A stretch of 39,848 bases of DNA from Defluviitaleaceae bacterium. GTDB lineage: Bacteria > Bacillota_I > Bacilli_A > MOL361 > Turicibacteraceae. The stretch's first letter is position 1. The number at the start of each line of letters is the position of its first letter. Under the pieces are notes generated by a model. The model was not told where the DNA came from. It ran no database searches and saw only the letters and a program-made list of their open reading frames with translations. Of the stretch, positions 7,287 through 12,375 are shown piece by piece. The DNA is taken from contig WRKJ01000096.1 of assembly GCA_009778135.1 (NCBI GenBank), positions 1 to 39,848 of the forward strand, read 5' to 3'. The translations under genes and the position numbers were made by a program.

Positions 7287-7820
7287 TTAATTCAAAACAA
7301 TGGGAATTCCATACTTATTAAACCCTTGCCCGTCATTGATGAATTGCTCATATTCTATTTCAGTGAATTTCATTTTTTCAACATGGCGATAAGTTTCAAT
7401 ATATACATCTTTTACGCCAGTTAGATTTCTCATTATGTAGTTCATGACTTCATCTAGCATTTCAGGCGTGAAAATTGATTCTTGTATTGCAATTGCACAT
7501 TCAACATTCTCTTTATGATATGTTACACACCACTTGAATTTTCCCAATGCAGGATTTATCAATAGTTGGTCATAACGTTTTTTTTCATCAATTCCGCATT
7601 TATAATAATGAGAAAGAAATTTAACAGGTTGCTTCTTGTCCTTCTTAACTACTTTAACAAGAATTTCTCCAGACCCTAGCTCTTTTTCAAACAGATAATC
7701 AATCAAAAAAACTTGTTTTTTATTTTTTGAGTTATACTTATTGAATCCCTCAATTAATTCTAAAGCATTGGGCGAGGGTAAACACTGATCATTAATCACA
7801 ATTTTATTAGTATCTACCAT
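7287..7820 (-). CDS. Hypothetical protein, 177 aa, possible immunity-type or accessory protein
   Basis: I do not recognise the family. The protein is soluble, lysine-rich and without signal peptide or membrane segments. It has an apparent alpha/beta make-up: GSGEILVKVVKKDKKQPVKF, LGKFKWCVTYHKENVECAIAIQES, then helices (TPEMLDEVMNYIMRNLTG) and a final MKFTEIEYEQFINDGQGF. Its start (ATG 7820) has only a distant GAGG, but it lies 13 bp after a possible 13-codon leader ORF with a strong site. A consensus sigma-A promoter drives it after a leader of about 140 bases. The surroundings look like accessory DNA with short broken frames. Immunity protein to a lost toxin is one possibility, with no direct evidence. 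Confidence 0.55.
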   Translation of the reverse strand: MVDTNKIVINDQCLPSPNALELIEGFNKYNSKNKKQVFLIDYLFEKELGSGEILVKVVKKDKKQPVKFLSHYYKCGIDEKKRYDQLLINPALGKFKWCVTYHKENVECAIAIQESIFTPEMLDEVMNYIMRNLTGVKDVYIETYRHVEKMKFTEIEYEQFINDGQGFNKYGIPIVLN

Positions 7821-8223: not shown

Positions 8224-8676
8224 TCACGCTTTCTGGTTAATTTTTACTCTTCTCAACCATGAAATTAATAAAGTCATATCATTCTGAAAAACGATAATCG
8301 GAAAAATACTTGCAATCATTAAATAAATATTCATTCCTATAACCATGTTTTTCCAGGGAAAATAAGGTAAAAAAGAAACAATTCCCACAATCATTAAATT
8401 CGCGAAAGCACCCGCCAAAAAGAAAATAATTAACTGAACAGATGATAATTTTTCTAATTCCGAATCATTGATTTCAAGATATCCACCAATTAAAATGGGT
8501 GATACATAGAGTTTCTTAATTCGGATTTTAAGCAAATCATAGCCCAAGTGAATATGATTCACTTTTAACCGATATCTTTTAGCAATCAGATAATGACCCA
8601 GTTCGTGTAAGATAACAGATAAGATTTGAATGATATATGTACCTACCAAAAAGTTTACAATAAAATGAGTCATCAT
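8224..8676 (-). CDS. M50-family (site-2-protease-like) membrane zinc metalloprotease
   Basis: 150 residues. The first membrane segment carries the zinc motif HELGH (24-28) in IIQILSVILHELGHYLIAKR. Two more hydrophobic segments follow (about 78-103 and 112-132), and FPIIVFQNDM near 130-136 takes the place of the usual N-x-x-P-x-x-x-x-D-G motif; its Asp could be the third zinc ligand. There is no PDZ domain. Such minimal proteases cut within or beside membrane helices. The ATG overlaps the stop of the ABC gene upstream (ATGA). In Bacillus the yyd operon pairs an M50 protease (YydH) with an ABC transporter for a secreted modified peptide, so peptide maturation or cleavage of a peptide acted on by the transporter is the likely role. 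The substrate is unknown. Confidence 0.8.
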   Translation of the reverse strand: MMTHFIVNFLVGTYIIQILSVILHELGHYLIAKRYRLKVNHIHLGYDLLKIRIKKLYVSPILIGGYLEINDSELEKLSSVQLIIFFLAGAFANLMIVGIVSFLPYFPWKNMVIGMNIYLMIASIFPIIVFQNDMTLLISWLRRVKINQKA

Positions 8677-10550
8677 TTTCCTTCTCTCGCATCTTTCGTC
8701 ATTTTAATCATTAAAAATGTTAGAGACATTCCCATCACAATCAAGACATTAACCATTAATATAAAGATATTTAAATGCTGATATGAATTTAATAATTGAT
8801 TTACTTTAAGCAAAATGATTAAACAAATCACATAACTTATCCCTATTAAAAATAAATAAGCATACCTAATTTGCTTTCGATCAAGGTAATGTGCTTCAAA
8901 ATCTTTCAACAATGGAAAGAGCTGTTTTTGATTTTCCATATAAATGACAACAATAATCGCACCAATGCCAATGGAGATAAGGATATTACGAAATAAAACA
9001 CGATTTACAACTTCTTGATTGTAAGATGCCAACCAAGCATCATCAAAGGCATGAGACGAAAATCCTTGCGCTGGATACATTTTAATCAGTTCATTAAGAA
9101 CAACTTGTTCATAGCCTGGCGCTGTGACAATTAAAAGATTCATCGCTTTATAGGATTCTTCTGGGGGATTATTTAGCGTATTTTTGAAAGCAATCATATC
9201 TGAAATGAAATATTGAATGTTATTTTCATCAAATGTGTAAAAGCCATAATTTTCATCTGCATGGTAAGAAACAATGGCAACATTTGCATAGTATGTTCCA
9301 ACCACTTCATACCCTTTTCCATTAAGCAAAATAATTTCACCTAAGGGGTTTTCTATCATCTCTGGGGTAAAATCAAAATAACTTTGAAGAAGTGTCGCTG
9401 ACAAAGTAACTTCTCTTTTGTTATCTTGTGGAAATCTCCCACTTTGCAAAAATTGGGGATTTAATAGCGGGGAAATATTTCGAGCATAACTTGTCCACAA
9501 AATTTCTGGGGGATTTAAAACAAGTACGTTCTCTAAAAGCGCATCATTTGAAAATGTTCTAAAAATTTGCTCATGATCTTCAATAATTATTTTTTCAACA
9601 GGTACTAAATTAAAAATATCACTGATATCATCATAATAAATGATGCGTTCATGTTTATTTTCATCAATTCTTAAACCTACATGATTTGCGTAGCGTTCAG
9701 TGAACGCACTGACAACACCAAAATCTGGAAAGGTTAAAATAATATCTTCTAGCGGAAGCTCCCAAGATGCGATGTGTTGTTCAAAGTGATCATTATTAAA
9801 CATAGATAAAGTAGCTAATGCAAAAATAACAATAAACAAAAATAAATACATCGATTTATAGAACAATAGCTGTGTCGCAATTTTAAAAGGGTTAAACGTA
9901 GCAGTCGTTGTTTTTTTGTTATTTTTTATCTGTTCATTTAGTAAATGATTCTCTTGACTTACACCCTTTTTTTCCATCTGAATTCGATTTGCTTTTTCAA
10001 ATTTCATGCGTGGATCATGCGTAACAATAATAAAGGTGCGTTCATCAGCTAATTTTTCAATGCATGTAACGAGTTGGGAAACTGAAGAATCATCTAGATT
10101 ATTTGTAGGTTCATCTAAAAAAACATACGGTGTTTCCTTTAATAAGGCAGTAATGATACTTATTTTTACACGCTCTCCACCGCTAAGGCTTGGGAATCTA
10201 GCATTTAAAATTTTTCTATCTAAATCAAATTGCTCCAACAGTCGTATGATTTTTTGCTCATCTATCTCCTTTTGTTTTTTTATATATGCAGCCACTTTAA
10301 TATCCGGCGTCATCATATTTTGTGGAACATAAGCAATTAATTCGTGCCTTCGTGATAGATAAGCATCTTGTTGTTCATCATGAGTTAACACGATATTTTC
10401 ATTTCGCTCATAGACCAGCTTTTCAATTAATGATGTTTTCCCAACACCATTCGTACCTGTTATGACGTGAATCCCATAAGCACTCAAATCTATGTCAATA
10501 TGATCAAAGTTTAATCGATTATTTTTAAGACTAAATTGGTTTAGTATCAT
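8673..10550 (-). CDS. ABC transporter, ATPase fused to MacB-like permease (second subunit)
   Basis: 625 residues. The N-terminal ATPase (about 1-200) has Walker A GTNGVGKTS, Q-loop YVPQN, signature LSGGERVK, Walker B VFLDEPTNNLDD and switch THDPR. It is followed by one membrane segment (near 230-250, SMYLFLFIVIFALATLSMF), a large extracytoplasmic domain (about 255-515) and three C-terminal membrane segments (ILISIGIGAIIVVIYM, YAYLFLIGISYVICLIILL, IFILMVNVLIVMGMSLTFL). This NBD-TM-exterior-3TM order is that of MacB-type (type VII) mechanotransmission transporters. I chose ATG 10550, which overlaps the preceding stop (ATGA) with GGGAGG about 11 bases upstream; a GTG at 10562 is in frame but has no spaced site. 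It probably dimerises with the neighbouring fusion protein. Confidence 0.82.
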   Translation of the reverse strand: MILNQFSLKNNRLNFDHIDIDLSAYGIHVITGTNGVGKTSLIEKLVYERNENIVLTHDEQQDAYLSRRHELIAYVPQNMMTPDIKVAAYIKKQKEIDEQKIIRLLEQFDLDRKILNARFPSLSGGERVKISIITALLKETPYVFLDEPTNNLDDSSVSQLVTCIEKLADERTFIIVTHDPRMKFEKANRIQMEKKGVSQENHLLNEQIKNNKKTTTATFNPFKIATQLLFYKSMYLFLFIVIFALATLSMFNNDHFEQHIASWELPLEDIILTFPDFGVVSAFTERYANHVGLRIDENKHERIIYYDDISDIFNLVPVEKIIIEDHEQIFRTFSNDALLENVLVLNPPEILWTSYARNISPLLNPQFLQSGRFPQDNKREVTLSATLLQSYFDFTPEMIENPLGEIILLNGKGYEVVGTYYANVAIVSYHADENYGFYTFDENNIQYFISDMIAFKNTLNNPPEESYKAMNLLIVTAPGYEQVVLNELIKMYPAQGFSSHAFDDAWLASYNQEVVNRVLFRNILISIGIGAIIVVIYMENQKQLFPLLKDFEAHYLDRKQIRYAYLFLIGISYVICLIILLKVNQLLNSYQHLNIFILMVNVLIVMGMSLTFLMIKMTKDAREGK

Positions 10551-12244
10551 CTTGTATGCCACCTCCCTAGATATTTTACTTGATAACCAATGATTCTTTT
10601 ATTTAAATAATGGCTAATTAGAATTGCCAAACTAACCAGAACTGCTGGTAAATAACTAACAATATAAGATGCGATTTCATCATTTAAAATAGCAAAAATA
10701 TTGGTTAAAATAACAATTAGTGTAAAAGTTAGCGGCATCCATTTGAAATTAAATTTCTGTTTAACAGCATTGATAATTTCTCCGTGAGAAAATCCATAAT
10801 GCTGTAAGACGCTAATTCGCTTTTTGTGAACTTGCACATATAAAAAAGAATATATCGTATTAACAATAAGTACAAATACACCTAAAAACAAAGAATAGTT
10901 GCGCATTGCTGTATTTGCATCAAACACAATTGCTTGATTAATTAATTGAATTGTCTCATTAGAACGGATAAAATAATGACCTTCTGATAATTGCACAATT
11001 TGATCACTTTGTAAAAAATCCCAAAAATCAATGTCCTCATTTAAAATTAAAACAGCATATGTTAATTTCAAAGGGTCAAGAACTTCATGATAACGTTCAT
11101 AGAGCATGTTGCTCGCTTCTAAATATAACTGTTGATCTAATTGATAGATAAGCATGTCTTCCATGATATCGTCCCAAATGCCCGTAAAAATTTTGGATGT
11201 ATCAATAAAAACAGAGCCAGATTCTTGATTTAAAATATCCGTTATGTAAATTTCCAAGGGATAAAATTTAGCACGTTCACCTATTTTAAAATACTCAATA
11301 GGGTAAATGATATAATCATCACTTTCTTCAATTTCTAATGTAAATGTAAAAGCTCTACTTGAAAATGTTTCAACGTAAGCACGAATATCACGATAAGAAG
11401 GGATTGCATCATCTTTAATCAATTCAAATATGCTTAATGGTAACGCCCCTGTGATATTATCTTGGAATATTGTAAAAGGACTAAATAAATCAACCTGATG
11501 ATAGGAAATAGGCGCAATTTTATCAACATATGTTTCCTTAGCATCTTGCATCATAAAAAGGATAAAAATACTCGTTGTCATTAATAATAAAGGTGTTAGT
11601 AAATTAATTGAAAATAATTTACTAATTTGATTAGGTGCATGCTGCACTTCATTTGAAAAGGAAAACATCTCATCATGACTGGTGTGTTCTTTAACTTTTA
11701 AAAGCTGCTGGTTTTCAATGTGGTAATGATTAACAGCCAGCTTATGAAGCCGATCATCATGTGTGACAATCATAAAAGTTTTAGTTTGACAAAACTGTTC
11801 TAAAAGATCGAGCAATAAATCAACTTTATTAAAATCTAAGTCATTTGTAGGTTCATCAATTAGGATTAAAGGTGCGTCAGACAATAAGCCACGAATAAGG
11901 GATAAAATACGTTTTTCCCCACCACTTAATTTTTTCACATTAGCATCTAATAGATAAGCCATGTTAAAATGATTTAACAAAGATTTGATAACATCTAAAT
12001 TTTTTTTATTCTCAATGGTTAAGGAAATGTTTTCTAGTGGAGTCAGCGAATTGATCATTTCATCGTTACTTTGGGAAATTAATACTGTTGTGTATGCTCC
12101 AGAAGTATGTAATTGAGTAAGAAGCAATGATTTTCCAACACCATTTTTACCAGTAATCAAGTTTACACGATAAGGAACAATTGAAATTTCTCCGCCATTA
12201 ATGAGCGTTTTTTGTTTTATTTTAATCGTTGGAAATGAGAACAT
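10547..12244 (-). CDS. ABC transporter, ATPase fused to MacB/FtsX-like permease (first subunit)
   Basis: 565 residues with the same architecture as its neighbour. The ATPase has Walker A GKNGVGKS, signature LSGGEKR, Walker B LILIDEPTNDLD and switch THDD. A membrane segment (about 213-230, LLTPLLLMTTSIFILFMM) and an extracytoplasmic domain (about 235-450) follow. The last part has three membrane segments with the FtsX-like loop KKRISVLQHYGFSHGEIINAVKQKF between the first two. The two proteins are related but clearly diverged, pointing to a heterodimer. AAAGGAG lies 6 bases before the ATG. It is the first gene of a three-gene coupled unit and is preceded by an intrinsic terminator, so expression is probably conditional. 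Export or extraction of a peptide or lipid, or self-protection, are plausible; the substrate is unknown. Confidence 0.82.
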   Translation of the reverse strand: MFSFPTIKIKQKTLINGGEISIVPYRVNLITGKNGVGKSLLLTQLHTSGAYTTVLISQSNDEMINSLTPLENISLTIENKKNLDVIKSLLNHFNMAYLLDANVKKLSGGEKRILSLIRGLLSDAPLILIDEPTNDLDFNKVDLLLDLLEQFCQTKTFMIVTHDDRLHKLAVNHYHIENQQLLKVKEHTSHDEMFSFSNEVQHAPNQISKLFSINLLTPLLLMTTSIFILFMMQDAKETYVDKIAPISYHQVDLFSPFTIFQDNITGALPLSIFELIKDDAIPSYRDIRAYVETFSSRAFTFTLEIEESDDYIIYPIEYFKIGERAKFYPLEIYITDILNQESGSVFIDTSKIFTGIWDDIMEDMLIYQLDQQLYLEASNMLYERYHEVLDPLKLTYAVLILNEDIDFWDFLQSDQIVQLSEGHYFIRSNETIQLINQAIVFDANTAMRNYSLFLGVFVLIVNTIYSFLYVQVHKKRISVLQHYGFSHGEIINAVKQKFNFKWMPLTFTLIVILTNIFAILNDEIASYIVSYLPAVLVSLAILISHYLNKRIIGYQVKYLGRWHTR

Positions 12245-12266
12245 CAGATTCTCCTTTCTGAAAGTT

Positions 12267-12297
12267 AAAAAATAGGGTGTTCTGCTTCAACACCCTA
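12267..12297 (-). terminator. Intrinsic terminator inside the leader of the ABC/M50 operon (candidate attenuator)
   Basis: On the minus strand TAGGGTGTT, loop GAAGCAG, AACACCCTA and six Ts form a strong 9-bp terminator. It lies about 45 bases after the expected transcription start and ends 23 bases before the first ATG. Transcripts from the promoter at 12347-12375 must pass it to reach the genes. Confidence 0.75.
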
Positions 12298-12346
12298 CTT
12301 TTGTTTAAAATTAGCTTAACGAATGCCTACATCAGCTACAATTTTC

Positions 12347-12375
12347 ATTATACGACAAAATATACGGCTTGTCAA
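12347..12375 (-). promoter_or_regulatory. Consensus sigma-A promoter of the ABC/M50 operon
   Basis: The minus strand has TTGACA (12370-12375), exactly 17 bp, TATAAT (12347-12352). Start of transcription is expected near 12340. The early leader can fold TAGCT with AGCTA, extended by AAAAT/ATTTT around a two-base bulge, ahead of the terminator hairpin. Confidence 0.85.

Follow-up and report, generated by a model that had tools for sequence, protein, structure and literature searches.

The three-gene operon described here codes for two diverged ATPase-permease fusions of the MacB type (ABC1 and ABC2) and a minimal membrane metalloprotease, and it looks like a module from which the gene for a small membrane-anchored protein has been left out. 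It lies in a 39,848-nucleotide contig of a Defluviitaleaceae bacterium (WRKJ01000096.1), the whole of which we call the window. In the reading that we favor, and that we regard as evenly poised between right and wrong, the operon is an orphan (toxin-less) immunity or resistance copy, whose ABC pair would dislodge an anchored toxin while the protease would cut its helix.

ABC1, ABC2 and the protease gene form a real operon (Table 1), coupled by ATGA overlaps at 10550-10547 and 8676-8673. Coordinates, Pfam matches and overlaps agree with the first-pass annotation of this DNA, which had described two MacB-like fusions joined in this way to a HELGH protease. For ABC2 we took as start the ATG served by the ribosome-binding site GGGAGGTGG; a GTG 12 nt upstream of it is the start offered in the ORF list. 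Ahead of ABC1, a promoter whose -10 box ends ~103 nt before the start codon is followed by ~50 bases without a gene and then by a hairpin (leader z = -3.5 versus shuffles). No known riboswitch or attenuator family was matched upstream of ABC1 in Rfam at E values up to 1, and no regulator or sensor kinase was recognized adjoining the operon. A ten-codon ORF at the promoter (MKIVADVGIR) was considered as a precursor peptide and rejected, because its ATG overlaps the -10 box and the ORF should therefore lie upstream of the transcript start. The operon has a G+C content of 31% and its flanks 38–41%, which fits horizontal gain and equally a generally A+T-rich family. In a same-site comparison, spmA of a same-genus genome had other neighbors, and no clean empty site for the operon could be shown. 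Downstream of the operon (7287-7820) is a 177 aa orphan ORF with no family match and an operon-like G+C content of 30.5%.

Table 1. Features of the operon and its leader (window positions)
Feature	Position	Strand	Description
ABC1	12244-10547	minus	565 aa; N-terminal ATPase fused to MacB-topology permease
ABC2	10550-8673	minus	625 aa; N-terminal ATPase fused to MacB-topology permease
M50/site-2-type membrane metalloprotease	8676-8224	minus	150 aa; HELGH + distal P..D
Sigma-70 promoter	12347..12375	minus	TTGACA-17-TATAAT, 12/12 match
Terminator-like hairpin	12273..12297	minus	9 bp stem, 7 nt loop, then TTTTTT

Both ABC chains matched ABC_tran in Pfam (6e-17 for ABC1, 2e-12 for ABC2), and the Walker A, signature, Walker B glutamate and H-loop motifs are intact in both. 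MacB_PCD gave a weak match to ABC2, below the Pfam cut-off (E = 0.001). Hydropathy bore out the topology proposed at first pass for each chain, i.e., an ATPase, one helix, a large exterior domain (220–265 residues) and three helices. This is the architecture of MacB and other type VII ABC proteins, with an N-terminal ATPase, a four-helix permease and a large exterior domain after helix 1. The seven best Foldseek matches of an AlphaFold model of ABC2 (mean pLDDT 64.5) were PDB entries of MacB. The exterior domains of ABC1 and ABC2 matched neither LolCDE nor FtsEX, the kinds of lipoprotein-release and cell-division system that the first-pass annotation had set against a peptide-handling role. 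MacB itself shares the N-terminal ATPase, the 1+3 helices and the exterior domain; however, it is a homodimer that works with MacA and TolC, whereas in the window the two chains have diverged from each other and the operon is not accompanied by an adaptor ORF. The first-pass annotation had called the fusion of both halves unusual. It is indeed uncommon, yet a Haloplasmataceae genome has a second tandem pair of fused ABC-FtsX proteins (locus L102), so that the arrangement is not unique. That pair (L102:95-5115) and a fused ATPase-permease of another relative (L030:166-2712) are each preceded by a small, possibly secreted protein of different sequence. According to the part of a MacB review drawn on here, MacB-type transporters perform their work outside the membrane, and the MacB-family system YknXYZ gives protection from a peptide toxin (PMC5985334). 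If our reading is true, the MacB superfamily gains a further permutation, a heterodimer of fused chains, which is not singled out in that part of the review (PMC5985334).

The third protein matched Peptidase_M50 (PF02163, 9e-14), and a profile search of the PDB matched it to RseP, MjS2P and SpoIVFB. It has the HExxH motif in a membrane helix and the distal Asp/Pro of the S2P/M50 class. Homologs of the ABC pair do not consistently lack such a protease: it is present in the window, at two Lachnospiraceae loci (A and B) and in Listeria, and thus in three distant lineages, and absent from a Turicibacter MAG and from three other loci of the window's own genome (contigs C21, C71 and C91), i.e., found at four of the eight loci that can be judged, a Haloplasmataceae MAG being left out of the count as its contig ends there. 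No M50 remnants were seen downstream of the copies that lack the protease. All four module M50s retain HELGH and the distal P...D pair typical of site-2 proteases, with H24, E25, H28, P126 and D133 invariant. The window M50 is most closely related to the two Lachnospiraceae module proteases (85 and 70 bits), and other M50s examined from its own class reached at most 46 bits; the best matches of the Listeria M50 are likewise module M50s. Given its presence at four loci and these relationships, the M50 is a recurrent, optional part of the module rather than a chance neighbor. At C71, the position of the M50 in other loci is taken by an uncharacterized 140 aa protein (L049:9291-9713).

ABC1-type and ABC2-type fusions stand side by side at nine loci, namely the window, C21, C71, C91, the Turicibacter MAG, the Haloplasmataceae MAG, Lachnospiraceae A and B, and Listeria. 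The three further pairs of the window's own genome have ABC1 paralogs of 34–44% identity and the gene order ABC2-ABC1 in two cases, and the four same-genome copies group apart from the others in a tree of concatenated ABC1 and ABC2 (100%). Among 392 genomes of the phylum, a strong match was obtained only in G002 and G036, apart from the window's own genome. Scanning 84,980 species genomes with a motif yielded four contigs, those of the Turicibacter MAG, the Haloplasmataceae MAG and two rumen Lachnospiraceae MAGs, and tblastn added one Listeria monocytogenes record. This productive scan relied on a DNA motif taken from around Walker B of ABC1 that misses divergent members such as that of Listeria, so that the locus count is a minimum; conserved-motif family searches of genome contigs (permease) and of viral contigs gave nothing. 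In plasmid and phage collections, the protein was covered by the Listeria locus only. Two unannotated records labeled Listeria phages (OR846786 and OR848104) carry the Listeria module ABC2 in two pieces, at 99.3% identity. The module is rare and apparently undescribed. PADLOC gave partial ATPase matches only (mad3, AriA and others) and nothing for the M50; these matches are generic and were rejected as identifying a known anti-phage defense system.

The first-pass annotation had proposed that neighborhoods of homologs be compared for small ORFs, and this comparison revealed a fourth gene adjoining the ABC pair at seven of the nine loci (C91, C71, the Turicibacter and Haloplasmataceae MAGs, both Lachnospiraceae and Listeria). 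Where complete, its product has 137–162 residues, with one N-terminal hydrophobic helix followed by a basic domain that is probably beta-rich; in the Haloplasmataceae MAG the gene is cut by the contig end. When profiles were built from six members and searched against 1442 ORFs from all loci, the left-out seventh was recovered at E values of 7.5e-14 to 5e-4, with the next unrelated ORFs at 0.12 or worse. On this profile evidence the seven proteins belong to a single family. No Pfam or NCBIfam family covers them at a meaningful score, and no recognized toxin family was matched. An AlphaFold model of a Lachnospiraceae member shows one helix and then seven strands at low confidence (pLDDT 57.5), with no significant match in the PDB, and a fold assignment was dropped. 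In Listeria, a run of A interrupts the reading frame (L053:5484-5955), and the second, downstream frame still matches the family; the broken frame lies near the internalin gene inlC2. The small-protein profiles found nothing in the window and nothing at C21, which has a 12/12 promoter ~100 nt upstream, no obvious terminator hairpin and no M50. The window copy has thus lost, or never had, its small protein. These data support well the initial view of a peptide-handling or defense module. The accompanying idea, that the operon acts on a membrane peptide made elsewhere, may be literally true, as the gene common among homologs is absent here.

Four loci (C91, C71, the Turicibacter MAG and Lachnospiraceae B) have a terminator-like hairpin 3' of the small-protein gene and ahead of the first ABC gene (z of -2.7 to -5.4); the gap before the ABC gene has none in Listeria or the Haloplasmataceae MAG. 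The window hairpin corresponds in position to this hairpin 3' of the small-protein gene. The same succession of small gene, hairpin and ABC genes was seen at five of five DUF1430/lactococcin-972-type loci examined (z of -2.1 to -7.6), three in the window's genome and two in related genomes. One small protein of these five loci matches PF09683 just under the cut-off (E = 7e-4).

Lactococcin 972-type loci, which consist of a PF09683 precursor, a DUF1430 (PF07242) permease and a TIGR03608-like ATPase, are similar in that a small exported beta-rich protein is followed by a hairpin and then by a large ABC system that is regarded as conferring immunity (PMC4055356); lactococcin-972-like proteins have a beta-sandwich fold and interact with lipid II (PMC11796350). 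However, these loci have one 730 aa permease and a separate ATPase where the module has two ATPase-permease fusions, their precursor (PF09683/TIGR01653) is of a different family from the module small proteins, none of which matched PF09683, and an M50 accompanies the module at some loci. ABC1 and ABC2 did not match PF07242, and the profile similarity of their permeases to DUF1430 was not significant, with hhalign probabilities of 0.9% and 16%. The link to lactococcin 972 is therefore one of layout and not of demonstrated homology.

The TMcin cluster (TmcA, TmcP, TmcBC, TmcD and TmcE) likewise combines a membrane-anchored small protein, a minimal S2P-clan protease and an ABC transporter (PMC13252029). 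There, the protease cleaves the leader off a membrane-anchored bacteriocin with a transmembrane helix, and secretion requires the transporter (PMC13252029). However, TmcP is a DUF3267 protein, TmcBC is described as a type V ABC transporter with a 12-helix permease, and DsbA-like and escort proteins complete the cluster; none of these was found here, where a PF02163 protease goes with a MacB-type ABC pair. A resemblance to the epipeptide operon yydFGHIJ, suggested at first pass, holds only as an analogy, in that an S2P-type membrane protease and an ABC transporter occur together. The ABC1 ATPase matched the YydI model at 2e-16, below its cut-off, and the best YydH matches were far below theirs (E = 0.0016 for one relative, 0.044 for the window). 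The yyd operon also has a radical SAM epimerase, a 17-residue peptide and separate ATPase and permease genes, and neither such an epimerase nor a short precursor peptide was recognized among ORFs around the window operon, as had been noted before. In B. subtilis, YydIJ is only a minor resistance determinant (PMC7026026).

We propose that a complete module would have four parts: the small membrane-anchored beta protein, two MacB-type chains probably acting as a heterodimer, and the S2P/M50 protease. The hairpin between the small-protein and transporter genes may serve as a partial terminator, and partial read-through would then leave the small protein in excess. Exported via its N-terminal helix, this protein might attack the envelope of neighbors; "toxin" is our provisional word for it, prompted by its size, charge, anchoring, layout and neighbors. 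The producer would be protected by mechanotransmission, with ATP-driven movement of the exterior domains detaching the small protein from the membrane or from its target, and its transmembrane segment presumably being cleaved by the protease. Having a perfect promoter but lacking a toxin gene, the window copy could provide standing immunity or resistance to small proteins of kin or of the cell's other modules. This reading is suggested by the prevalence of the small protein among homologous loci while the window keeps promoter and hairpin only, by the strong promoter of the second orphan, C21, in the same genome, by the relationship of the window M50 to module M50s, and by precedents in which YknXYZ protects against toxins, the lactococcin 972 ABC pair is taken to give immunity and an S2P protease and ABC transporter handle TMcin. 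One caveat is that, if the protease serves immunity only, its absence from half of the judged loci needs explaining. Also weighing against the reading are the small protein's lack of a toxin-family or fold match, its low-confidence model, the layout-only tie to lactococcin 972 and the two loci without a hairpin.

The main rival, which we consider unlikely although well short of negligible, is maturation and export in trans, in which the window M50 and ABC pair would process and release the small proteins of C71 and C91, as TmcP and TmcBC do for TMcin. These two loci have a small protein with an N-terminal helix and no M50, and a search of the genome with the window M50 found only the window's own; leader removal and ABC-dependent secretion in TMcin are a precedent. 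However, C71 and C91 each possess an ABC pair already, a related module in the Turicibacter MAG has no M50 at its locus, and the window operon has a strong promoter of its own and shares its contig with none of the other modules. It is also conceivable, though improbable in our judgment, that the operon serves general peptide-antibiotic detoxification or sensing in the manner of BceAB or MacB, with no dedicated partner and with the protease as an unrelated addition. The MacB-type fold, the strong promoter and the missing small protein would all fit; against this stand the lack of a recognized regulator or sensor kinase next to the operon, the dedicated small protein of the nearest paralogs and an M50 of the module's own kind. 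A housekeeping envelope function of the LolCDE or FtsEX type shares the superfamily topology but is very hard to credit, as the full-length Foldseek matches of ABC2 are MacB, one genome holds four diverged copies, and the extremely sporadic spread largely excludes it.

Beyond the orphan immunity copy, the loci may represent a new family of interbacterial toxins with a membrane anchor and a basic beta domain, handled by a fused MacB-type heterodimer and a minimal site-2 protease. The family would be thinly distributed over Erysipelotrichia-like Bacillota, Lachnospiraceae and Listeria, and orphans would act as stand-alone immunity. This we put forward tentatively, at somewhat less than an even chance; if true, it would be a bacteriocin-like family new to Pfam and NCBIfam. 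The window's genome offers a natural experiment, with four paralogous modules, of which two have the putative toxin, two lack it and one carries the protease, so that immunity and maturation roles of the transporter and protease are directly testable. The same genome contains six DUF1430 permeases (contigs C54, C58, C59 and C73; loci L081-L084), including two pairs in tandem, and three of these loci have small secreted proteins. This lactococcin-972-type set is an unusually dense set of bacteriocin-like loci.
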